A DNA stretch of 27,136 bases, from the IMG/VR virus record IMGVR_UViG_3300012012_002156, positions 1-27,136 of that record. One strand, written 5' to 3'. Below are positions 13,696 to 27,069 of this stretch, piece by piece (within the stretch, counting starts at the first letter, position 1; the number at the start of each line of letters is the position of its first letter). The notes beneath the pieces were generated by a model that made no database searches, had not been told where the DNA came from, and was given only the letters and a program-made list of their open reading frames with translations. Source of the stretch: a virus. The position numbers and the translations under genes are program-made.

Positions 13696-14288
13696 TTAAA
13701 GTGAAGCTGCTAGGGGAGTTAGGGCGGAAATTTGGTCGCAGCTATGAATTCATGGCAAATTCCCCTAAAGATGTGATGTCGGCGCTGTGCAATCAACTGG
13801 ATGGATTTAGGCAATACATGGCGGATGCTCATGAACATGGCATTGGTTTCAGGCTTGTAGATGAAGATCCAGATGGTATGGATTATGCCAATGTGCTGAT
13901 GGGCTGCAGGCGCCTTGTAATTGCACCAATCATTAGTGGTGGTGGTACTGTAGGACGAATTTTGGTTGGCGTGGCATTAATTGCATTAGCTTTTGTTCCT
14001 GTTATAGGTGCTGCTGCAATTGGCACTTTTGGTGCGACACCAATTGGTGTTGGAAGTTTATTGTTTAGCTTTGGTGTGGGCATGGTTTTAACTGGTATTG
14101 CATCATTACTTACGCCACCAGTGGAAACACCAAAAGGCGACGCAGAACGTAAAGATAGTTTTTTGTTTGATCGCGCTGCAGAATTAACCTCACAAGGGGC
14201 ACCAATACCTTTACTTTATGGTAGATTTCTTGCTCAAAGTCCTTTAATTATTAGTTCATCACTTTCCACTCAACAAGTGGCGGCGTAA
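13686..14288 (+). CDS. Tail tip assembly protein, lambda gpI-like
   Basis: The 200-residue protein starts in the last bases of the K-like gene (ten-base overlap). Residues 1-80 look like the ubiquitin-like beta-grasp domain of gpI (MQLIKVKLLGELGRKFGR, then DVMSALCNQLDGFRQYM, and GCRRLVIAPIISGGG). Residues 90-150 are strongly hydrophobic and Gly/Ala-rich (GRILVGVALIALAFVPVIGA, LLFSFGVGMVLTGIASLLTP), as in gpI, and the end has GAPIPLLYGRF, the usual 'g.piPivYGr.' signature close to the gpI C-terminus. gpI helps to build the J hub in lambda. The hydrophobic stretch could cross a membrane or pack inside the tip. Confidence 0.88.
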   Translation: MQLIKVKLLGELGRKFGRSYEFMANSPKDVMSALCNQLDGFRQYMADAHEHGIGFRLVDEDPDGMDYANVLMGCRRLVIAPIISGGGTVGRILVGVALIALAFVPVIGAAAIGTFGATPIGVGSLLFSFGVGMVLTGIASLLTPPVETPKGDAERKDSFLFDRAAELTSQGAPIPLLYGRFLAQSPLIISSSLSTQQVAA

Positions 14289-16420
14289 TGACTTTACCTA
14301 CCATGGAATTAGAAGATGATATTATTTATAGTGGCGCGGGCGGCGGCAAAGGAGGCGGAGGAGGAGGAGGCGGCGGTAAGGGCAAGGGTGGCAGTAATCC
14401 ACGTAAGCCAGAAGAAGATCCTGAATCTCTACGAAGCCGGTCGGAAGCTAGTTTTGTTGCAGTGTTGTCTGAAGGGGAAATACAAGGTTTTGAAGATGGT
14501 GTAGATCCACTCACTCGTATATTTTTAGATGGTGTGCCACTAAGAAATAGAGACGGCAGTTCTAATTTTTCAATTGCTGCATTTTTCACGGGCTCTCCTT
14601 CAACGGCGCAAGGTAAAGGAAGCTTAATTCCCGCTATTTCTAGCTCAATACCAGGACTAGTTCGCACTGAAACCAATACTGGTGTGAATACTATTGTTGC
14701 TGATTATCGCGTGGGGGTGCAAAACCAAGATCCCATGCCCGGTTTTGATGATGTAAGAGCAGAACAAGGCGTGAATATTAAACTTACACAAGCAGCCGGT
14801 CGCGTTTTCAGAGTTACTACCAGCAGTATATTTAATCGAATACGAGTGAGGATAGGAATTGGATCATTATTTTACGTCAATAAAGACAATGGTGATGTTA
14901 GAGGGGGATTTGTAAGCTTTAATATTCAAATTCAATCTGATAATGGTTCGGTAATTGTGAATGACAATAAAGTAATTGGTGGTAAATCTAGGGGGCCGGT
15001 GGAGTTTGAATACGAGTATTCACTGTCTGGCAATGGCCCATGGATAGTAAGTGTTGAAAGAACATTAGCAGATCCTACCAGTACCACCGAAAGCAATGAT
15101 TTATATTTTAAGGCAATTGTAGGGATTATAAATCAATCATTTCGCTACCCAAATACAGCATTACTTGGCTTAAAAATTGGAGCTGAAAATTTTTCTGCAG
15201 TGCCAACAGTAGCAGCAGATATGCTAGGAATTAAAATTAAAATTCCTCAAAATTATAATCCCATTACGCGATCATATGCAGGCATTTGGAATGGTACGTT
15301 TAAAACAGAATGGAGTAATAATCCGGTGTGGATATTTTATGATTTATTGACTAATACAAGATATGGAGCAGGACAATTTATAGACGAGAATCAAGTGGAT
15401 CGCTATAGTTTATTTGCAATTGCTCAATATTGTGATGAATTGGTGAGTGATGGTAAAGGCGGCAGGGAGCCACGTTTTACTTTTAATGCTTACATTACAG
15501 ACCGAGGAGAGGCTTATAGCGTTTTAAATAGTTTAGCTGCTGCTTTTCGCGGGATGCTATATTTCAATGAAGGAACAGTTGTCGCCATTCAAGATCGGCC
15601 TAAAGCGATTACTAAAATATTCTCTCCTGCTAATGTTGTTCAAGAAACAGATGATAATGGCAATGTAACAACACCACCATTTGCTTATGAAGGCACGGCA
15701 CGTAAAGCAAGAAAAACAGTTGCGTTGGTAAGCTGGAACGATCCAGATGATTCTTATAAAAGCAAGATTGAATACGTGGAAGATGCTGAGGGTCTTGATC
15801 GTTATGGTTACCATGAAGTAGAAGTTAGAGCTTTTGGCACCACTTCCCAGGGGCAAGCGCAACGAGTGGGAAGATGGATTTTACTAACAGATCAATTGGA
15901 TACGGAAACCGTTACGTTTAAAACTGGTACGGAAGGATTCTTTTTGCTACCAGGGGAGATCATTGGCATTGCAGATCCAACAAAAGGAGGAAAGCGTTAT
16001 GGGGGGAGAATTACTGCAGCAACAACAATTGCCGTTACCATTGATTCTCCATTCACCTTGTTGAACGGTAAATCCTACACACTCACCGCAATGCTTCCTA
16101 ATGGCTCCCTAGAGAGCCGTACGGTGCTTAATAGCCCTGGCGCCACTTCTGTGCTCAGTATTAATCCGGCCTTGCCTGAGGCGCCTATACAAGGCGCTCC
16201 TTGGGTGCTGCAGGAGGATGCTGATGGTATAAGAAAATTTCGCGTGATTTCAATTAACGAAGACGATGGACGAATGACAGTAATTGCTTCTCTTTACAAT
16301 GAAGAAAAATTTGCTATTGCTGATAGCCCTCAACTAGGTTCTAAGCGTGTTTCACTGTCTAGACTGCAAACAATACCACTTGTATCACAAAGCAGTATTA
16401 TTCTTGGGACGGTATCGTAA
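14288..16420 (+). CDS. Tail tip hub protein, lambda gpJ-like (hub part only)
   Basis: Many blocks match lambda gpJ in order: a Gly/Lys-rich start at residues 16-36, FVAVLSEGEIQGFEDGVDPL near 56, YPNTALLGLKI near 288, NYNPITRSYAGIWNGTFKTE near 323, WIFYDLLTNTRYGAGQ, FAIAQYCDELVSDGKGGREP, FRGMLYFNEGTVVAIQDRP, and FGTTSQGQAQRVGRWIL near 520. It ends near the position where lambda gpJ reads EKEAIVDNGAHF. At 710 residues it lacks everything lambda gpJ (1132 residues) has after that: the fibronectin-III repeats, the stalk and the receptor-binding end. It would form the trimeric hub below L and I. The start overlaps the I-like stop as TAATG. The Gly run is longer than in lambda. Confidence 0.92.
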   Translation: MTLPTMELEDDIIYSGAGGGKGGGGGGGGGKGKGGSNPRKPEEDPESLRSRSEASFVAVLSEGEIQGFEDGVDPLTRIFLDGVPLRNRDGSSNFSIAAFFTGSPSTAQGKGSLIPAISSSIPGLVRTETNTGVNTIVADYRVGVQNQDPMPGFDDVRAEQGVNIKLTQAAGRVFRVTTSSIFNRIRVRIGIGSLFYVNKDNGDVRGGFVSFNIQIQSDNGSVIVNDNKVIGGKSRGPVEFEYEYSLSGNGPWIVSVERTLADPTSTTESNDLYFKAIVGIINQSFRYPNTALLGLKIGAENFSAVPTVAADMLGIKIKIPQNYNPITRSYAGIWNGTFKTEWSNNPVWIFYDLLTNTRYGAGQFIDENQVDRYSLFAIAQYCDELVSDGKGGREPRFTFNAYITDRGEAYSVLNSLAAAFRGMLYFNEGTVVAIQDRPKAITKIFSPANVVQETDDNGNVTTPPFAYEGTARKARKTVALVSWNDPDDSYKSKIEYVEDAEGLDRYGYHEVEVRAFGTTSQGQAQRVGRWILLTDQLDTETVTFKTGTEGFFLLPGEIIGIADPTKGGKRYGGRITAATTIAVTIDSPFTLLNGKSYTLTAMLPNGSLESRTVLNSPGATSVLSINPALPEAPIQGAPWVLQEDADGIRKFRVISINEDDGRMTVIASLYNEEKFAIADSPQLGSKRVSLSRLQTIPLVSQSSIILGTVS

Positions 16421-16818
16421 TGGCTTACAACGAAGTGGCATGGGATTACCCTAAAATTTCTTCATATTCCATTCTTAATGCAGCCGTACATCCGGCTATT
16501 TGCTGGCAGCCATTACAAAACAATCCATTTATTGGTGCGTTTGATGTAGATTATTTGGATATTGAAAATAAATTATGGGTGAATATTGGACGCACTTCTA
16601 CTAATTACATTCGTTTTCCCAATGACGATTACAACGGGCAAGGGGTTTATCAAATTAGAATTGCTACAATAGGCATCAATGGCATTCGCTCTCCCTACGC
16701 TTATAGTACGGTAGCGTTTTCCAGTCCATTATCGTTTGATTTCACAAAAAATCAAACAGTAAGATTGATAAGTGGCACGGAAGTGCCTAACCAGCGCTAT
16801 CTTTTCTTGATTCTCTAA
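16420..16818 (+). CDS. Free-standing fibronectin-III-like tip protein (split-off J part)
   Basis: The 132-residue protein starts in a TAATG overlap with the J-like stop. It reads ICWQPLQNNPFIGAFDVDYL, then WVNIGRTSTNYIRFPN and GVYQIRIATIGINGIRSPYA, the strand order of a fibronectin type III domain, with the conserved Trp, the '..Y.iRi.a.n..G.rSp.' end and no catalytic residues. In lambda, the first such domain follows the hub directly within gpJ. Here the same module seems to be a separate polypeptide placed immediately after the hub gene. It probably sits at the tip of the J hub as a collar or spacer. The C-terminal 30 residues are unassigned. Confidence 0.6.
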   Translation: MAYNEVAWDYPKISSYSILNAAVHPAICWQPLQNNPFIGAFDVDYLDIENKLWVNIGRTSTNYIRFPNDDYNGQGVYQIRIATIGINGIRSPYAYSTVAFSSPLSFDFTKNQTVRLISGTEVPNQRYLFLIL

Positions 16819-17934: not shown

Positions 17935-19650
17935 ATGGCTGATTTAAAAGAAGGCGTATCAGTTGTAACGGTAGGGCGTACAGCGCCAATTCCTCCTGGT
18001 CAACAAACAATGGCAGTAAGTTTGCCAGTGGTAATTGCCAGTGATCAAACGCCAGTGCCGGTAGAAGTAGCAAACCAACAAATTTCTGAAGTAAGTTTAA
18101 GTTTGCTTGGTATTCCTCGTGCCGAAGTGGCACTTGGTATTTTTGCTGATGTTACCACTTATGACATTAATCCAAGTGAATGGGCTAGCAGTGGTTCAAA
18201 TGGCACCACTACACATATTCCTAACGAAAGCGCAGCAGAAATTTCCGTACCAACAGGAGCTCCTGTTGGCTATCAAATTTTAAGTAGCAGACGTTTTTTT
18301 CGTTATCAACCAGGGCGAGTTAGTGCTGCTACTTTTGGAGTTAGGACCACTATTTCCAATATTTCAACTGATATTAAAAAATTTGGTGCTTTTGATAGTC
18401 GTGATGGTTATTACATAGAAGTGCAAGGTGGTGGTCAGTCAGATTCAGCCAGCAAAGATTTTAATTGCTATTGCGTAAGACGAACAAGTGCGTTTGGCAG
18501 TAATGAGCCAGGTATTCTTACGCCAAATACAGCGGATGGTGATATTGGTACGGCAGGAGCAGCTTTAGTAATAGTACGAGCTGGTCTTACTTATATCCAT
18601 GCTGGCCTTTTTGACCGTAGTTTACGTGGCGGCGGTAACACTATTACAAATGGACCTGTAAGTTTTACTGTGCCTAATGAATATAAATATACATACGAAT
18701 ATCGTGTGCCACGTAAATATTTTAGCCATGATCGCTTAGATGCAGAAACAAAAACACAGTATTACGCAGATAAAACACCAGGCCGAAATTCCTTCACGTT
18801 AACGATTACAGGCGATGCTGATACTCCTGTGGTGACATATACCAATGGCACCTCCGTAACGGATGTAAACAATGATATTGTTACCAGAACAAGCATTTGG
18901 GATATTGATTTTTCAAAAGTTACAATGTATAAAGTTGAATATAGCTGGTATGGTGCTGTTGGTGGACATTTCTTGGCTTATGTTCCTGATGCTACAACCA
19001 CTGGGGAAGCACGATGGGCTCGCATGCATCATATACGGGCTTCCAATCAACTCACAAGCCCTAGCCTGGGCAATCCTACACTTCCCATTTCTTACTTAGC
19101 GCAAAAAAGTCAAGGTAGCAGCAAGTGTTCTATTTATAAATATGGTGCTTCTTATTACATCGACGGAGGAGATAAAGGCACTGTTACAGCTAGATCAGCA
19201 AGTAATGATGCTGATCGTTCTGTAACAACAAGTGGCACAATGCTAATTGGCTTGCAAATAAAAGAAAATGTTAATTCAATTCGCAATCGAATGCAAGTTT
19301 ACCCCACGCGTTTAGGCGTGGGCAGTAGTGGTCGTGCTGTCGTAAAACTTATAAAAAACCCTACTACTGTTTCCGGCACTCCTTCTTTTACCAGTACAGG
19401 TACTTTAAGCCCAACAAATGTTACTACAAGCAGTGGTGTTGTAACAATAAGTGGCGGAACCAATGTTGCTACATTTTTTGTGGGCACTGGTGGTATAGAT
19501 ATTGATTTAGCCCCATATTTTGGTTATAACAAAGATTACTTGTCATATCCATTGACTGCTGGAACTGGTGATACGTTATATGTATTTGCACAAGGTATTG
19601 GTGCATCAGTAAACATGAGCGCTTCGTTGACTTGGGAGGAGCAAGTGTAA
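17935..19650 (+). CDS. Large virion structural protein, first of a tandem paralogue pair
   Basis: The 571-residue protein begins with a motif frequent in phage structural proteins, QTMAVSLPVVIASDQTPVPV (residues 24-43), then SEVSLSLLGIPRAEVALGIF at 51-70. Further blocks are RRFFRYQPGRVSAATFGVRT, VEYSWYGAVGGHFLAYVPD, SYYIDGGDKGTVTA and the last residues MSASLTWEEQV. The same blocks recur in the next gene. I do not know a characterised function; I associate the '..YSWYGAVG..FLAYVP' block with structural proteins of cyanophages. It looks like a beta-rich virion protein, perhaps a fibre or tip adhesin. TTGAGGAA is a clear ribosome-binding site. Confidence 0.6.
   Translation: MADLKEGVSVVTVGRTAPIPPGQQTMAVSLPVVIASDQTPVPVEVANQQISEVSLSLLGIPRAEVALGIFADVTTYDINPSEWASSGSNGTTTHIPNESAAEISVPTGAPVGYQILSSRRFFRYQPGRVSAATFGVRTTISNISTDIKKFGAFDSRDGYYIEVQGGGQSDSASKDFNCYCVRRTSAFGSNEPGILTPNTADGDIGTAGAALVIVRAGLTYIHAGLFDRSLRGGGNTITNGPVSFTVPNEYKYTYEYRVPRKYFSHDRLDAETKTQYYADKTPGRNSFTLTITGDADTPVVTYTNGTSVTDVNNDIVTRTSIWDIDFSKVTMYKVEYSWYGAVGGHFLAYVPDATTTGEARWARMHHIRASNQLTSPSLGNPTLPISYLAQKSQGSSKCSIYKYGASYYIDGGDKGTVTARSASNDADRSVTTSGTMLIGLQIKENVNSIRNRMQVYPTRLGVGSSGRAVVKLIKNPTTVSGTPSFTSTGTLSPTNVTTSSGVVTISGGTNVATFFVGTGGIDIDLAPYFGYNKDYLSYPLTAGTGDTLYVFAQGIGASVNMSASLTWEEQV
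18935..18962 (+). repeat. Coding repeat shared with the paralogue (copy 1)
   Basis: Twenty-seven of 28 bases match 20541-20568, encoding VEYSWYGAVG here and IEFSWYGAVG there. Another shared stretch is 19162-19187 against 20765-20790 (25 of 26 bases). The identity at DNA level suggests a duplication that is not ancient or that has been kept alike by recombination. Confidence 0.8.
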
Positions 19651-19654
19651 ATAA

Positions 19655-22078
19655 ATGGCACAAGATTTTTCTGAATATTATCAAGTGCCTGATGATGCAC
19701 AATCAGCCGGTAGCGAACTTATTGATGCTCAACTCATTGATTTCCTCACGGGAGATTCGTTAATTGATCCCATTGTTCAAGAACCATTAACGGGAGATTC
19801 AAGGGGCACCTTAGTACTTGCGGCAGATGAAGGCATTATTCCAGCTACTATTTCTAATTCTGATGGTGCCAACATAACTGTTGATTCTGTTAATAGCGAA
19901 GCAAGTGAAGTAGGGATAAGTCTGTTAGGCATACCAAGAAGCGAAACATCATTAGGGCTTTTTGATGCAGTAAATATTTATGGCATCAATGATAAAGAAT
20001 TTTATAACAGCCCCGACGCTGCTGGTTATGCTTATGCAGCGGATCCAGGAGAATGGACTTTTAGAACTGAAGGTGTTGGTGCTGATGAAAAAAAATATGG
20101 ATATTATTGGCGCCATCTGCCAGCCGAAAGTGCCATTCAAGCTTATGTATTTCCTCCTCCAGTTAGTTTTACTTATTTAGTTGATGATAATACTGGTCGA
20201 TACCCAGGGGGACATACCAATGGAGCCATGCTTGCGTTTTGGGAAAGCAAACGAGCATTTCGCTATCAACCAGGACGAGTGACTGGTTTTACTCTTGGCG
20301 TGAGAATGTCAACTGGTAGTAATTATGCAGGAGAAACAATCAAATGGGGATGTCGCAATGATGTGGGAGATGGTTATTTCTTTCAACTTGATAAAGGTGG
20401 TGATTTATTTGTAGTGCGCACATCGCCTGATCTAGGCACATCAAAAATTGCTAGGGACGATTGGAATGGTGATCCCATCCAGCCCAATATTGGCAGCACT
20501 GGTTGGAATTTAGACTTGTCCCATGTGACGATGTTTAAGATTGAATTTAGCTGGTATGGTGCTGTTGGCGCTAGGTTTTTAGCTTATGTGCCAATTGGTC
20601 ATGATGAAGCGCGATGGGTTACTTTACATTATTTTTTCGCAGAAAATCAATTTTATTTTCCTAGTCTTCGTAGTCCATTTTTAAGACTTTTCGTGGAAGC
20701 ACGTACCACAGCAGGTGCATTATCTCCAGCCTTTATTAATCTTTACGGCAGTAGTGTATTTATTGACGGAGGAGACAAAGGCACTGTTACGGTTGGTGCC
20801 GCTGGATTAAATGAATTAAAACCAATTGATGCTACGCCAAGAAGCCTTTTAGGTCTAAATATAAAACCTTACATTAATAATATAATAAACAAAAAAAGTA
20901 TATTCCCTGTTAGTTTATCAGTATTTGCAACAACTGATGCGCGTTTTGATTTAATATTTCAAAGAGCTTATTTTGGGGAGGAAAGTTTTAATTATGGTAA
21001 TGGCACTACTTTAACTGCTAATGCTGCATCTGGCATTACCGTAATCCAAACTGATTCTAATACACTAATTACTCCATCTGGGCAATTTTTTCCTGACATC
21101 AGCGGTGAATTAGGAGGAGCTAGTGATTACAGAAGTGGCCATAAAGTAAAGATTGTGGGAAATGGCATTCTTGCTACTCATGTAGTTTCAATTAGCAATG
21201 ATTTAACAAGAATTGTGACAGATAGAGCCATGCCCGCTGGTATTACAAGCATTACATTGGGGAGGATGAATAATTATGCTGTTAGCAGTGGATTCATAGA
21301 TAGCGGAGTCACTCAAGGTACAATTTTTAGGTCACTGATGGGACAATCAGGTTATGCACGAATTGGCTTGCTTCCTAAGGCGTCAGGATTAACTTATACG
21401 CCTGGTTCTGGCTATACGCCTGGTTCAAATGATGTTTTATGGGTGGCATCTAGCTATCCAGCTCTTCAATTTAATCGCTTTGGAACAGTTGTAGGAGAGG
21501 AACGATTCCCGCCAGGAGCTAACGACGGCACTGATTTTGCAATTACTTTTCCTACCAGTGGTACTACAACAATTAGTGCAGCAGGGCGATCAATTACAAT
21601 TTCAGGCAATTCTCCATGGCCTATTCGTGTGGTAGTAGAAGCCCATGCAGGCGCAACCATTTCAGATGTAGTGTTAGCGCAGCAACCAGTAGCAGTGCGT
21701 TTGATACCTGGAAGCGGTTCCACTCAAGCACAAACATCTTGGCCTGCAAGCAGCGGCATCACTCAAAGTTCATCTAGTGCTGGAGGGGCAAATTATGTAG
21801 CCAATAAATTTGTAGATAGTCTTTCAAGTCCCCTTGGCGCAGCTTTAGTAGATACGCAAGGCTATAGAGTATTAAAAGGAGGAGATCGGGTGGCTACTTA
21901 TTTTGTTGCAAGTGGCGATAGTCGTCAATTTGATCTCAGCCCATTGTTTGGTTTTGATAAAATGTTTATTACAGGCACTCCTGGTGGAGCTGATAGCACT
22001 GGCGCACTTTTTGTTGTCGCTACTGCTCGCACTGCATCTGGAGAAGCTAGCGTAAGTATGAACTGGGAGGAACAGTAA
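19655..22078 (+). CDS. Large virion structural protein, second of the tandem paralogue pair
   Basis: The 807-residue protein shares with its upstream neighbour SEVGISLLGIPRSETSLGLF (84-103), AFRYQPGRVTGFTLGVRM, MFKIEFSWYGAVGARFLAYV, FIDGGDKGTVTVGA and the terminal MNWEEQ. It is 236 residues longer: a new N-terminus with two LTGDS repeats, extra aromatic-rich material at about 110-180, and extra beta-rich material around 435-700, including two copies of YTPGS near 590. It is predicted beta throughout without a catalytic motif. The role is probably the same as that of the first copy, with added surface modules. Start: GGGAGGA 14 bases upstream of ATG, rather long spacing. The stop overlaps the next ATG as TAATG. 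Confidence 0.6.
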   Translation: MAQDFSEYYQVPDDAQSAGSELIDAQLIDFLTGDSLIDPIVQEPLTGDSRGTLVLAADEGIIPATISNSDGANITVDSVNSEASEVGISLLGIPRSETSLGLFDAVNIYGINDKEFYNSPDAAGYAYAADPGEWTFRTEGVGADEKKYGYYWRHLPAESAIQAYVFPPPVSFTYLVDDNTGRYPGGHTNGAMLAFWESKRAFRYQPGRVTGFTLGVRMSTGSNYAGETIKWGCRNDVGDGYFFQLDKGGDLFVVRTSPDLGTSKIARDDWNGDPIQPNIGSTGWNLDLSHVTMFKIEFSWYGAVGARFLAYVPIGHDEARWVTLHYFFAENQFYFPSLRSPFLRLFVEARTTAGALSPAFINLYGSSVFIDGGDKGTVTVGAAGLNELKPIDATPRSLLGLNIKPYINNIINKKSIFPVSLSVFATTDARFDLIFQRAYFGEESFNYGNGTTLTANAASGITVIQTDSNTLITPSGQFFPDISGELGGASDYRSGHKVKIVGNGILATHVVSISNDLTRIVTDRAMPAGITSITLGRMNNYAVSSGFIDSGVTQGTIFRSLMGQSGYARIGLLPKASGLTYTPGSGYTPGSNDVLWVASSYPALQFNRFGTVVGEERFPPGANDGTDFAITFPTSGTTTISAAGRSITISGNSPWPIRVVVEAHAGATISDVVLAQQPVAVRLIPGSGSTQAQTSWPASSGITQSSSSAGGANYVANKFVDSLSSPLGAALVDTQGYRVLKGGDRVATYFVASGDSRQFDLSPLFGFDKMFITGTPGGADSTGALFVVATARTASGEASVSMNWEEQ
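20541..20568 (+). repeat. Coding repeat shared with the paralogue (copy 2)
   Basis: Partner of 18935-18962, with one mismatch in 28 bases. It encodes the conserved SWYGAVG block of the second paralogue. Confidence 0.8.
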
Positions 22079-23049
22079 TGGCATTTGCAGGTTTAGTTGC
22101 TGCTAATAATCTTTCAGATGTAGCAAGTGTTGAAACTGCATGGGATAATATTGGAGATGGTATTACGGCAACAGTTTCACCGGCTGCAGGGCTTACTGTT
22201 CAATTGTTTGATGATACAGGCAATACAAATAGCACTTTTACCAATCTTCGTTCAACTAATATAGAGCCTATAATTAATTTTACCAAACAATATGCTATTG
22301 AAAAAGGAGGCACTGGAGAAAATTTTTCTATTCGTGCCGTAGGGCAAGTGCAAGCTAGGCAGGGAGGTTCAAATACTTTTTCAATATTAACGGATGATGG
22401 AGTGAGAGCATGGATTAATAACGTTCAAGTGTTAAATGAATGGTACGGACAATCTTCCGTGTGGCATACATTTACAGCTAGTGGTTTAACTCAAGGGCAA
22501 TGGTATAATATACAAATTGAACATTTCCAAGGGCCTGGAGATGCTCGTTTAGTATTTGCTAATAAAGAAGACGTAAGTGATCCAGTCAGAACGATAAGAG
22601 CAGCAAGTGGAATTGCAATCAAAGGGGCTGATGTTTTAGCAATTACTGGCATCAGTAGACTTAGCACGAGAGATATATTATTACTCAATGGCTTAACCAG
22701 TAATGTTCAAACTAGATTAAACACATCTAGCCAACAAATTTCTTCTGGCATTGTTTTTCAAAATAATGCATTGCCAAAAGCATCTCCTGCTTCTTCAGGA
22801 AATTATTCTATAAATTCCACTTTAATTGCTCAAAGTTTAAGGATTAATAATATTCCCGTGCAGTCTCTTGCTACTGCACCATTTAGCGGTTCCACTGCTA
22901 CCACGCCAATATTATTAAATGATGCTATTATTACTAATACCTTCACAATGCAAGGCGCTATTAGTTCAGGAGTAGTAAGTTCTCCTTCAATTGCCATTCC
23001 TGTGAGAGATGGTAATTATGTTTATTATCTTAAGGCGGGGCAATCATGA
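22078..23049 (+). CDS. PA14-domain tail adhesin, first copy
   Basis: The 323-residue protein has three parts. Residues 1-28 hold NNLSDVASVETAWDNIGDG, a motif of the 'NLSDV.....A..NLG' type found at the N-termini of phage fibre proteins. Residues 35-162 form a PA14 domain: FSIRAVGQVQARQGGSNTFS, then ILTDDGVRAWINNVQVLNEW and YNIQIEHFQGPGDARLVF, with the DDG turn at 106-108 that often binds calcium and sugars. The rest, 170-323, is a Ser/Thr/Ile-rich stalk-like region. PA14 domains bind carbohydrates in adhesins and glycosidases, so a host polysaccharide or surface glycan is the likely target. GGGAGG seven bases before ATG is a strong ribosome-binding site. Confidence 0.8.
   Translation: MAFAGLVAANNLSDVASVETAWDNIGDGITATVSPAAGLTVQLFDDTGNTNSTFTNLRSTNIEPIINFTKQYAIEKGGTGENFSIRAVGQVQARQGGSNTFSILTDDGVRAWINNVQVLNEWYGQSSVWHTFTASGLTQGQWYNIQIEHFQGPGDARLVFANKEDVSDPVRTIRAASGIAIKGADVLAITGISRLSTRDILLLNGLTSNVQTRLNTSSQQISSGIVFQNNALPKASPASSGNYSINSTLIAQSLRINNIPVQSLATAPFSGSTATTPILLNDAIITNTFTMQGAISSGVVSSPSIAIPVRDGNYVYYLKAGQS
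22321..22358 (+). repeat. PA14 coding repeat (copy 1)
   Basis: Thirty-five of 38 bases match 24809-24846. This is the start of the PA14 core (FSIRAVGQVQA here, FSIRAVGQIQA there). It could serve as a recombination point between the two PA14 genes. Confidence 0.8.
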
Positions 23050-24389
23050 CGCAACAATTTGGGTTTCGCGCCACTAGAAGTTTAGCTGAAGTAGAAGATA
23101 AAAATGCATGCTGGGATAATCTTGGCATTAATAGAAGTGATTTACCATTATTGGTAGGCACTAGTGCTGCTGGTGTAACAGAAGGTGATTATTTTAATTG
23201 CAAAAATTTAAATAGCTCATTAGAAGCGCAAGTTACCACATTATCAGCAGGTGCAGCATCGGGATTCGTTGCAATGGCTGGTAAGATTAGCAAAAATGGA
23301 GATTCAGGGATTAGCGCTTTATCAGGAACAATAATCAATAATGATCGCGCTTATTACAATGGTAATTACAATATTATTTCAGCTTCTACCAATAGCTTCT
23401 TTTCGCCAATAACAGCTTCTGGTTATAGCTCTGGCGCTCAATACCTAATTGGCTCCACATATTTGCCTAATTTAACAATTAGCGGTCTTACTTTTGCTGG
23501 TGAAACAAGAGAGTGGTCCAATTATTTTATTAAATATCGTTCGTATTTACGGCTTACTGATAGTGGCAGCACATCTAGATTTTCACCATTGTATCTAGCT
23601 CCACCTACAGCAGTGCCGTCTAATGTTTTATGGCTTGATGGAGAATTTAGTTCTTTTACCATTGAGGATGGAGGAATAAAGCGTTGGGATGACGTGATAC
23701 AACGTGGCAGCGCATCTCAGACTACAAGCGCTAATCGTCCAACATTAGTGACTAGTGAACTTGCATCTAAACCTGCTGTATTTTTTGATGGCAGTAATGA
23801 TTTCTTGTCATTGGGTAGTATTGGTGGTTCCATTCCAACAGGAGCAACGTTAATTGTTTTATTTAGTTTAAGTGGTACCAATGGTGTTACTGGTGACTCA
23901 GACTATTGCATTCTTAGTTCGCTAAATAATGTTTCTAGTGCGTGGAGGAATGGTTCATGGGGATTGTTTACCGCTAGTTTGATTGGTGGTTTTCCTTCTG
24001 CAGCAACAATGCCAGCAAATGGTACAATTCTTGCAACAGTAAGAGCAAGCAGCGCTCATGGCCTTGAATTTAGGATTAATGGCTCTAGGCAATCTTTTAT
24101 TGCTCCAGGGTCATATACTTATTCAAGCGATGGTAATTTCGTGATAGGAGTTAGTGATGCTACCACTGCTGGACATGCCTTTAGAGGTTACATTCATTCG
24201 TTAGCCTTGTTTGATGAAGTATTAAGTGATGCAGAATTAAATTCTCAAGAAGAATATTTTCGATGGAGGTATGATTTTGTGTGGGACCCTGATGCTCTAG
24301 CGTTGACTTCTACAAAAATTATACAAGGCGAACAATTTGAAATTCTTGAATTTGAAAACGGTGCTTTTTTTGAGGTGGATTTCCCATGA
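23046..24389 (+). CDS. LamG-like (concanavalin-fold) tail adhesin
   Basis: The 447-residue protein overlaps its neighbours by ATGA at both ends. The N-terminus has RSLAEVEDKNACWDNLGINR, the same kind of anchor motif as the flanking PA14 genes. Residues 30-185 are a Ser/Gly/Tyr-rich beta region. Residues 190-410 look like a laminin-G/concanavalin jelly roll: LWLDGEFSSFTIEDGGIKRW, KPAVFFDGSNDFLSLGS, ATLIVLFSLSG, GLEFRINGSRQSF and FRGYIHSLALFDEVLSDAEL. Such domains bind glycans or act as adhesion modules on phage fibres. The last 35 residues are acidic and aromatic. No hydrolase motif is seen, so binding rather than cleavage is inferred. Confidence 0.75.
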   Translation: MTQQFGFRATRSLAEVEDKNACWDNLGINRSDLPLLVGTSAAGVTEGDYFNCKNLNSSLEAQVTTLSAGAASGFVAMAGKISKNGDSGISALSGTIINNDRAYYNGNYNIISASTNSFFSPITASGYSSGAQYLIGSTYLPNLTISGLTFAGETREWSNYFIKYRSYLRLTDSGSTSRFSPLYLAPPTAVPSNVLWLDGEFSSFTIEDGGIKRWDDVIQRGSASQTTSANRPTLVTSELASKPAVFFDGSNDFLSLGSIGGSIPTGATLIVLFSLSGTNGVTGDSDYCILSSLNNVSSAWRNGSWGLFTASLIGGFPSAATMPANGTILATVRASSAHGLEFRINGSRQSFIAPGSYTYSSDGNFVIGVSDATTAGHAFRGYIHSLALFDEVLSDAELNSQEEYFRWRYDFVWDPDALALTSTKIIQGEQFEILEFENGAFFEVDFP

Positions 24390-25378
24390 CCAGAGGACTT
24401 GTTAGGAAAAACAATTTAAGTGATCTCACTGATCCAGTGTTAGCCAGGATTAGTCTTGGCTTGAGAACAGATGATTACAATCGCATTAGAGGCTTGTCTG
24501 CATCACTTGGCGTTAGCAATTTAGATATTCAAAAAATTGCTAATTCTTCTACTAATTTTCAAAATCAAATTAATTCATCAACTGCTGCATTAGCCACCAT
24601 TACTTCTTATTTATATGCAGAAAAACATGGTGTTGCCCCAACAGTTTCACCAGCATCGGGACTGACGGTTGAATTATTTGATGATACATATGCAGTTTAT
24701 AATATTGCAGGCGTAAGGCAATATTTTACTACTCTTCGTTCATATAACGTAGAACCTACAATTGATTTTACCAGTGCTTACGATATAAGCAAAGGAGGAA
24801 ATGGAACAAATTTTTCTATTCGTGCGGTAGGGCAAATACAAGCTAGTGGCAATGGCTCGAACACCTTTGCAGTGTTGACGGACGATGGCGTGAGAGTATG
24901 GCTGAATGGCATTCAAGTGGTGGATGCTTGGTATGGCCAAGGTGAAACTTGGTATGCATTTACTGGTAGTGGTTTAACAGCAGGGCAATTTTATGACATT
25001 AGGATTGAATATTTTCAAGGAGGAGGCGCAGCTCGATTGCTATTAGCTAGTGGCGTTGGTGGTAATCCAGTTACAACATTAAGAGCAGCAGTTGGAGATG
25101 CTCTTACGGGCACATGGTCCAATAGCGGAAAAATCAACGCCAGTGGTATTATTGTTAGTGGTGTTACTTTATCTGGAAGTACTGACGCTTTATTTTCACG
25201 CTCTTCCCCATTGTCCTCTCTTCAAATTACTACTGCATCAGGAGTGGTAATCCCTAGCGGGCTTACGGTTAATAACCTTACGAGCAGCGGAAATATAGTT
25301 ATTGCATCCGGGAAAGTGGCTGCTAATACAATTCCAGTTACAATTCGCGGGGTGAGTTATAAGGTGGATTTAGCTTAG
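24386..25378 (+). CDS. PA14-domain tail adhesin, second copy
   Basis: The 330-residue protein starts with RKNNLSDLTDPVLARISLGL, a textbook phage fibre N-terminal motif. A helical stretch at 30-75 (RIRGLSASLGVSNLDIQKIA) is absent from the first copy. The PA14 domain at 88-222 is closely similar to the first: FSIRAVGQIQASGNGSNTFA, VLTDDGVRVWLNGIQVVDAW, and YDIRIEYFQGGGAARLLL, with DDG at 166-168. The rest is a Ser/Thr/Ile/Val-rich stalk ending IPVTIRGVSYKVDLA. It is probably a tip adhesin with the same or a related glycan target. The start overlaps the LamG-like gene as ATGA. Confidence 0.8.
   Translation: MTRGLVRKNNLSDLTDPVLARISLGLRTDDYNRIRGLSASLGVSNLDIQKIANSSTNFQNQINSSTAALATITSYLYAEKHGVAPTVSPASGLTVELFDDTYAVYNIAGVRQYFTTLRSYNVEPTIDFTSAYDISKGGNGTNFSIRAVGQIQASGNGSNTFAVLTDDGVRVWLNGIQVVDAWYGQGETWYAFTGSGLTAGQFYDIRIEYFQGGGAARLLLASGVGGNPVTTLRAAVGDALTGTWSNSGKINASGIIVSGVTLSGSTDALFSRSSPLSSLQITTASGVVIPSGLTVNNLTSSGNIVIASGKVAANTIPVTIRGVSYKVDLA
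24809..24846 (+). repeat. PA14 coding repeat (copy 2)
   Basis: Partner of 22321-22358, three mismatches in 38 bases. Confidence 0.8.
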
Positions 25379-25419: not shown

Positions 25420-27069
25420 ATGACCAAAATTTCTGCGCTTACACCTCTAGGTGATGGCCTAGCCGTAGGAGATCAATTTATAATTCGAGATATTGATGAT
25501 ACTGGCACTCCTAATAAAAGCGTTACTATTAGTGGGATCACAAGGGGACTAGAAGTTGGAACGGCACTGGCTCCATCTATAGCGTTTGCGGCGGACAAGA
25601 ATACTGGCATCTACGGTACTGGCTCTGATGTATTGGCATTAGTTACAGCCGGAGAAAATCGACTTCATATCACCGCTGGAGGACTTGTAGGCATAGGGAC
25701 TAGTTCGCCTGGAGCATTCTTATCAGTTGAAGGTAATTCAGCTACTAGCGCAATAGGTTTTGCGGGAAGATTTTATGACACAGCAACAAATCGCGGATTT
25801 GGTTCGCCATTACTGTATGTAAGAACCCCTAACGATACAGCTTCATCGTCAGCCATTGGCATGTTTGGTGTAGGCGACAATGCTGATACTAGTGAATTGG
25901 GAAATCTTTTTCGCATTACTCAGACAGGGCAGGTAGGGATTGGCACTGCGACGCCTACCAATACAGACAAATTAGAAATTCAAACGAGTTCTACCTCTGC
26001 CCCTGGTCTTTGGGTTCAGACAGGAGGAACAACCAGCGCGTACCCAATCGCTGATTTTAGGACGGGATCAAATCTTTCAGCATTATTGATAAGAGGCGAT
26101 GGCGCTTCAGTATTTACTGGAAGGGTATTAGTTGGTACGTCTACTGCGCGTACGGATTATTTTAATAACGGCCTGACAGCAATGCTCCAGGTAGAAGGCA
26201 CAAACTATGGTGGTAATGTTGATCGAGCTTGTGTTTCTATTGTAAATAACAACAGCGTTACGGTAAATGAAGCGCCAGTGCTTATTTTGGGGCGTTCCAA
26301 TGGGTCGGCGCTGAACTCAAAAACTATAGTTAGCGATGGAACTCGTTGTGGTTACATCAGCTTTCAAGGAGCTGATGGAAGCGATTTAATAGATGCGGCA
26401 AGTATTGCTGGGGAAATAGACGGCACCCCTGGCGCCAACGACATGCCAGGCCGCCTAGTGTTCTCCACTACCGCAGATGGTGGCAGCTCACCGACGGAGC
26501 GGATGAGAATTAATCAAGACGGCAGCACCTTGTGGAGGAGTAATGGAGCAACAGCAACTCATGATATTGGAAACTTAAGCACATCCGCTACAGGCTACAT
26601 TTCTTTAATTTCAAGTTATAGAAACACGACCAACAACACATATAGCTTTCTGGCTTGCGTTAGGCAGGGGTTTGCAGTTGCCCTTGAGATTAGAGACAGC
26701 GGGAATATCTACAACACAAACGGTGTTTATGGAGCTTTTTCTGACATTAAGTTAAAAGAGAACGTTGTTGATGCCACTTCCCAATGGTCTGATATTAAAG
26801 CTGTTAAGGTACGCAAGTACAACTTCAAAGAAGAAACCAACCATCCAACCCACACTCAAATCGGCTTGGTTGCTCAAGAAGTTGAACTTGTCTCGCCTGG
26901 GCTCGTCACCGAGTGCCCCGACCGCGACGAAGAAGGCAACGATCTTGGCACCGTTACCAAGAGTGTCAACTATTCGGTGCTTTACATGAAGGCAGTCAAA
27001 GCATTGCAAGAAGCAATGGAGCGGATCGAAACATTAGAACAGCGCCTTACTGCTGCTGGCATTGACTGA
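25420..27069 (+). CDS. Tail fibre with C-terminal S74 self-cleaving chaperone domain
   Basis: The 549-residue protein begins MTKISALTPLGDGLAVGDQF, a common phage fibre start, then has several repeats of the type G.VGIGT..P (GLVGIGTSSPGAFLSVEGNS, GQVGIGTATP, GRVLVGTST), typical of beta-helical fibre shafts. Residues 441-549 are an intramolecular chaperone of the peptidase S74 family: SDIKLKENV, then KYNFKEETNHPTHTQIGLVA, QEVELVSPGLV and a coiled-coil end VKALQEAMERIETLEQRL. Ser441 and Lys446 match the family's Ser/Lys dyad, so cleavage between Phe440 and Ser441 is expected after trimer folding, releasing a chaperone of about 109 residues. It sits 41 bases after the previous gene with no obvious Shine-Dalgarno sequence. 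Confidence 0.9.
   Translation: MTKISALTPLGDGLAVGDQFIIRDIDDTGTPNKSVTISGITRGLEVGTALAPSIAFAADKNTGIYGTGSDVLALVTAGENRLHITAGGLVGIGTSSPGAFLSVEGNSATSAIGFAGRFYDTATNRGFGSPLLYVRTPNDTASSSAIGMFGVGDNADTSELGNLFRITQTGQVGIGTATPTNTDKLEIQTSSTSAPGLWVQTGGTTSAYPIADFRTGSNLSALLIRGDGASVFTGRVLVGTSTARTDYFNNGLTAMLQVEGTNYGGNVDRACVSIVNNNSVTVNEAPVLILGRSNGSALNSKTIVSDGTRCGYISFQGADGSDLIDAASIAGEIDGTPGANDMPGRLVFSTTADGGSSPTERMRINQDGSTLWRSNGATATHDIGNLSTSATGYISLISSYRNTTNNTYSFLACVRQGFAVALEIRDSGNIYNTNGVYGAFSDIKLKENVVDATSQWSDIKAVKVRKYNFKEETNHPTHTQIGLVAQEVELVSPGLVTECPDRDEEGNDLGTVTKSVNYSVLYMKAVKALQEAMERIETLEQRLTAAGID

Follow-up and report, generated by a model that had tools for sequence, protein, structure and literature searches.

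The closest mechanistic precedent for the locus described here is the evolved Dit (evoDit) of lactococcal skunaviruses, a conserved tail protein with carbohydrate-binding domains inserted inside it. The internal CBM insertions of evoDit promote adsorption, both of its terminal parts can be aligned with Dit that lacks an insert, and the groups of inserts differ among close relatives (PMC10688798). For the distal fibre adhesins gp37/gp38 of T-even phages, later papers report that conserved motifs flank the swapped specificity segments and that recombination occurs in the conserved parts (Tetart 1998, cited in PMC7468147 and PMC3797505). T4-like fibritin has swapped its C-terminal modules, so that a conserved N-terminal attachment domain and coiled coil are found with alien variable domains (PMC3797505). 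Another relevant group is formed by the PA14 lectins, such as MpPA14 (PMC8092209) and the RsgI3 dyad (PDB 6qe7); in sugar-binding PA14 domains a consecutive Asp-Asp pair (DcisD) coordinates Ca2+ (PMC8092209).

We analysed a virus record of 27136 bases, referred to in full as the window. It is a fragment of a lambda-tailed siphovirus, with the gene order protease, capsid, neck, tape measure, lambda-type tail-tip genes, J, V1, V2, A, B, C and an S74-chaperoned fibre. Genes A, B and C are thus encoded in the tail module, with fibre-type domains, after the lambda-type J and the phrog_1645 genes. The features of this region are as follows.

V1, 17935-19650: V2 paralogue, with relatives among isolates only in cyanophages
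V2, 19655-22078, + strand: virion-structural-type gene directly 5' of A (phrog_1645)
Gene A, 22078-23049, + strand: 323 aa, scaffold with PA14 inserted inside the N-terminal module
A, first part of the shared N-module (NLSD...WDNIG, helix 1), 22078-22155, + strand: from profile comparison; helix 18-25 in a low-confidence model
A, cargo site with PA14, 22156-22620, + strand: 155 aa from motif to scaffold, against 12-18 aa in orthologues that lack cargo; residues 56-157 match Pfam PA14
A, remainder of the shared module (helices 2-4) with the beta-rich scaffold at the C-terminus, 22621-23046, + strand: from alignment and a low-confidence model
Gene B, 23046-24389, + strand: 447 aa, shared N-module and fixed LamG/concanavalin-type domain, from orthologues and structure
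B, shared N-module, residues 1-83, 23046-23294, + strand: from profiles; four helices at 19-25, 30-36, 46-52 and 59-83 (pLDDT about 36-57)
B, concanavalin/LamG-type domain, residues 185-411, 23598-24278, + strand: pLDDT about 83-96; VIA Z 18.1 to 9vyh_p
Gene C, 24386-25378, + strand: 330 aa, paralogous to the A scaffold over its full length, PA14 following the N-module; PA14-free forms are 174-177 aa
C, shared N-module with coiled-coil-like end, residues 1-82, 24386-24631, + strand: from profile comparison
C, PA14 cargo, 24632-25096, + strand: shares 57% aa and about 70% nt identity with its counterpart in A
C, beta-rich C-terminal scaffold, 25097-25375, + strand: conserved in the related locus L004, which is without PA14
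Tail fibre with Peptidase_S74 (endosialidase-type) chaperone, 25420-27069, + strand: Pfam 4.9e-9, phrog_18345 7.2e-65; N-terminus unlike those of A, B and C

In its manner of working, A resembles evoDit, in that a CBM-type domain is inserted internally and the N- and C-terminal parts align to the insert-free form. EvoDit nevertheless appears to be a different protein, from phages of Gram-positive hosts, whereas here there are two paralogous scaffolds next to a fixed-lectin paralogue, and the acceptor is an NLSD module downstream of a lambda-type tail tip. The A and C scaffolds gave no match to a Dit family in PHROGs or Pfam, and the genes stand after J, not beside the tape measure; a distant relationship to Dit may still exist. 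The segments swapped in T-even gp37/gp38 lie between conserved parts, as in A, but in the accounts cited above it is the C-terminal tip that is replaced, while the cargo of A is internal and may be absent altogether. Swapping in fibritin is ancient and C-terminal (PMC3797505); here it is recent, as the L069/L066 pair described below illustrates, and in A it is internal. The PA14 domains of A and C share with the PA14 lectins a significant Pfam match and the conserved Asp-Asp pair, but are single domains embedded in a phage tail-type scaffold. What is new relative to known modular receptor-binding proteins is the scaffold family, the evolvable pair of paralogues beside a fixed-lectin paralogue, and the occurrence of the same cargo types in both members of the pair. 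We found no description of the A/B/C arrangement in the open-access literature. Our preferred reading, with a probability of roughly 0.6, is that A, B and C are expressed together as minor adhesion proteins of the tail tip or side fibres and were duplicated from one protein, of which A and C can evolve by cargo exchange and B is a fixed lectin-type component.

Genome context and probable host

V1 and V2 (window 17935-22078) are tandem phrog_1645 paralogues, kept in all related loci and elsewhere found only in cyanophages. The isolates with relatives of V1 are the S-TIM5 group, S-CBS4 and Cylindrospermopsis phages, all of them cyanophages, and the J of the window is nearest to that of Synechococcus phage S-CBS4 (47.5%). 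The lambda-type J (window 14288-16818) is short, at 710 aa, and the product of the next gene, of 132 aa, corresponds to positions 894-959 of the J profile, beyond the part covered by J itself. The J of S-CBS4 (gp039) is about as short, and behind it lies gp040, a relative of the 132-aa gene; J therefore appears to be split in this group. The tail region of S-CBS4 resembles the window in the order from capsid through tape measure, in J, in gp40/gp41 and in its V1/V2 relatives, but it carries the unrelated fibre genes gp046-gp049 in place of A, B and C. As a whole, neither A nor C was found in any cultured phage of a set of 50,697 records. Since the relatives are S-CBS4, S-TIM5 and the Cylindrospermopsis phage, the host is probably a cyanobacterium; this assignment draws on relatedness, the host marker psbA not having been found in 13 related records.

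A shared N-terminal module in three coupled genes

The first-pass annotation had described three consecutive, overlapping genes with a PA14 / concanavalin / PA14 arrangement, and both points were borne out. The three ORFs are exactly where it had placed them, and the A/B and B/C junctions are start/stop overlaps of 1 or 4 bases (TAATG or ATGA). Pfam PA14 (PF07691) is found in A (2.4e-12, 47.3 bits) and C (6.4e-14, 52.4 bits), well over the cut-off of 24. For B the Laminin_G_3 score (21.3 bits) is under the Pfam cut-off of 27.6, and our claim for this protein is thus one of fold, not of Pfam family membership. The model of B, built with 31 orthologues, has a concanavalin-type beta-sandwich at residues 157-411, with a pLDDT of about 83-96 over residues 185-410. 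Its best solved match is the tailspike of cyanopodophage Pan3 (Foldseek 4.1e-10; VIA Z 18.1, 3.0 A, 211 residues). Foldseek also matched B to clostridial neurotoxin binding domains, which reflects the common concanavalin fold and says nothing on toxicity. A gene of Pseudanabaena phage Pam2 (ON014754:58090-58329) annotated as 'botulinum neurotoxin type A' weakly matches B and is most likely a misannotated concanavalin fold. For A, the quality of the model (pLDDT 44) was too low to search for similar folds. The sole family hint for the A scaffold is a weak resemblance to Pfam DUF7243 (1.1e-4, below the cut-off) in the related locus L063 (11019-12152).

The position and families of these genes bear on whether they encode virion parts at all. 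If A, B and C were soluble or cell-surface lectins made during infection, the finding that the A and C scaffolds have no PHROG match would be easily understood. We consider this highly improbable, as the three genes lie in the tail module between the phrog_1645 virion genes and the S74 tail fibre, B matches the virion-structural family phrog_10356, and the cargo families are tail or baseplate families. Judged from position and family membership, A, B and C would be incorporated in the virion and may act in binding and adsorption.

The motif reported at the start of each gene was recovered, the three quoted stretches being present at residues 10-12 of each protein. A search of phage genomes for neighbouring genes sharing it, proposed at the same time, was also positive: the motif occurs in the A, B and C sets of 79 related IMG/VR loci (numbered L003, L004 and so on), which a V1 search had returned. 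Counting distinct proteins, a relaxed version of the motif begins no later than residue 30 in 45/48 of the A set (which takes in three C proteins with PA14 and two ORFs that are stray or partial), 25/40 of the B set and 22/24 of the C set, but in 0/732 other ORFs of the same 79 loci. The likeness extends well past the motif. When profiles of insert-free A, B and C were compared as wholes, A/B matched at 96% (E 2.5e-9, 71 columns), C/B at 96% (E 1.3e-9, 115 columns) and A/C at 93% (E 2.5e-7, 168 columns, full length), with all reversed and shuffled controls at or below 0.6% probability. The common helical module covers about 70-80 residues, compared with the 17 of the motif first noticed, and A and C are paralogous across their full insert-free length. 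On these profiles, the N-terminal module is judged to be paralogous in all three genes. The models, of low confidence in this part, give the same series of helices in B (19-25, 30-36, 46-52, 59-83) and in A (18-25, then PA14, then 183-189, 197-203 and 208-222), which would make the PA14 of A an insertion within the module that separates helix 1 from helix 2.

The first-pass annotation had offered two interpretations of the shared N-terminus, the first being a single docking site filled by interchangeable proteins. The common N-terminal module is what such mutually exclusive alternatives would have. However, the motif stands at the start of all three genes in 19 loci, A and B are adjacent and translationally coupled in 47/47 loci, and the three genes form one operon-like row whose order and presence are conserved; moreover, the annotated ORFs of the window include no gene of invertase type or with another switching function. 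The co-occurrence of the genes and the A-B coupling make them look like fixed, co-expressed parts; since the three coexist, we regard it as very unlikely that they exclude one another from a single site. The idea of interchangeable glycan-binding parts survives at another level: carbohydrate-binding-type domains are indeed swapped on a shared module, but the exchange concerns a domain within A or C, and does not replace one whole protein by another. The second interpretation was a hetero-oligomeric fibre, for example a hetero-trimer, assembled through the shared module. Paralogous modules with a coiled-coil-like helix and the strict coupling of A to B are in keeping with this, but C, which directly follows B in some loci, is found in many relatives 1-5 kb downstream, behind other fibre genes, and we consider a single mixed fibre unlikely.

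The motif in other fibres leads to a stronger competitor. With exact spacing, NLSD[LV]-x5-AR-x-NLG was found by DNA pattern search in at least 120 IMG/VR viral contigs, while a version with one extra spacing residue had no match in 2.9 million contigs. In the other contigs it lies mostly deep within long fibre ORFs (residue 50-1100), and in some of them it is repeated 6-8 times (L168, L103). Among isolates, FoX2, Haito and a Halomonas phage have a match in annotated tail fibres, about 240-265 residues from the start. This wide and mostly internal occurrence rules out the short motif by itself as a docking signature; it is a common fibre element, and in A, B and C it is special by its N-terminal place, not by its presence. 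That most other fibres contain it as an internal repeat speaks more for a function in spacing or trimerisation than for docking to the virion. It is accordingly nearly an even call, if somewhat short of one, that the N-module chiefly serves to trimerise or to space, with A, B and C docking elsewhere or on different tail proteins and their common N-terminus reflecting descent only. On the other side, the module of A, B and C is N-terminal with no domain before it, which means that some part of each protein must attach or be free, and the module is the sole part common to all three. Under our preferred reading, the module may serve in attachment, in trimerisation, or in both.

Cargo exchange in A and C

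In most relatives A and C are small, PA14-free proteins of 174-190 residues. The distance from motif to scaffold in 39 distinct A proteins is 12-18 residues in 25 and 155-438 in the other 14, and all the large inserts occupy one and the same site. The inserted domains are of several families: PA14 in the window, L003 and L019; LamG in L069 (1.4e-19); a phrog_5939 tail domain in L090/L047, L055 and L038; phrog_17104 in L093; and two further families in L072-L078-L088-L074 and in L042-L063. C is cargo-free (174-177 aa) in most relatives. In the window clade its module is followed by PA14, while in L073/L078/L088 the C-terminus of the protein bears a phrog_5939-type domain. Related cargo is thus found in both genes, PA14 in A and C of the window and phrog_5939-type domains in A of L047/L055 and C of L073/L078/L088. 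B has the LamG domain in every case.

Mapped on the V1 tree, the cargo state of A requires at least 10 changes; for empty versus loaded A, 9 changes are needed, of which 5 are forced by well-supported branches. L069, with LamG, and L066, which is empty, are near neighbours on this tree. Their DNA is 85% identical across V1 and V2 and over the initial ~97 nt of A; this similarity is lost where the cargo starts and returns with the scaffold. In L049 and L043 the break also falls within A, just beyond the motif. Breaks at the cargo between conserved flanks point to recombination at those flanks as the probable mechanism of exchange.

Three loci show further peculiarities. In L093 (14131-15470) the phrog_17104 cargo of A has its own stop, and the remainder of the scaffold is a separate 152-aa ORF with a 4-base ATGA overlap, which suggests that the C-terminal scaffold can function as a chain of its own. 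The frame of A in L059 (5543-7167) breaks where the scaffold resumes after the cargo, by a frameshift or an assembly error. L047 contains a stand-alone gene (18043-19269) with a domain 44% identical to the A cargo of the same genome, a possible cargo donor.

We propose that one small protein was duplicated to give A, B and C, its N-module consisting of four helices: that of NLSD...NLG, two short ones, and a longer one resembling a coiled coil. B would present a constant lectin-type (LamG) domain. In A, the first and second helices of the module would flank the point at which carbohydrate-binding-type domains are inserted, and in C the cargo would follow the module or be added at the C-terminus. 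Cargo would be gained, lost or replaced through recombination in the conserved DNA flanking the site, leaving the scaffold undisturbed, and in the window phage a PA14 lectin-type domain would fill both scaffolds.

The PA14 pair and its significance

All three phages with PA14 (window, L003 and L019) have both copies. We found no further IMG/VR contig carrying PA14 of the A/C type, and no PA14 protein relatives were confirmed in bacterial genome contigs. Independent import of two PA14 domains is disfavoured by the 57% aa (about 70% nt) identity of the copies in the window, by their always occurring together and by their absence from any other IMG/VR contig found. Gene conversion between the copies was not seen either, A-A and C-C identity across genomes (86-95%) exceeding that of A to C. 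The simplest reading is that PA14 was probably acquired once and then duplicated internally before the three phages split.

Among solved sequences, the closest are the RsgI3 PA14 tandem (8.5e-27) and 6qdi (1.7e-15). The Asp-Asp pair (D106-D107 of A) is invariant in 6/6 A/C PA14 copies. Some PA14 domains do not bind sugars; by homology, those of A and C would bind host surface glycans through the Ca2+-coordinating pair. It is tempting to go further and to see in the locus a three-part adhesion device, in which paralogous adaptors combine into a single mixed structure at the tail tip, A and C each offering an evolvable cargo site and B a fixed lectin, with the same lectin module being copied between sites. 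We regard this as unlikely; if it were true, such copying would raise avidity, as may be the case for PA14 in the window phage.

Our findings indicate that a very common fibre motif, NLSD...NLG, can adjoin an acceptor site for recombination, and they provide a natural series (empty, PA14, LamG and other jelly-rolls) at one fixed site. In phages of cyanobacteria, to which the window phage and its relatives probably belong, the receptor-binding parts are mostly unknown. The series makes it possible to test how surface-glycan specificity changes by insertion of an internal domain, as opposed to replacement of a tip, and which glycans the cargo domains recognise.
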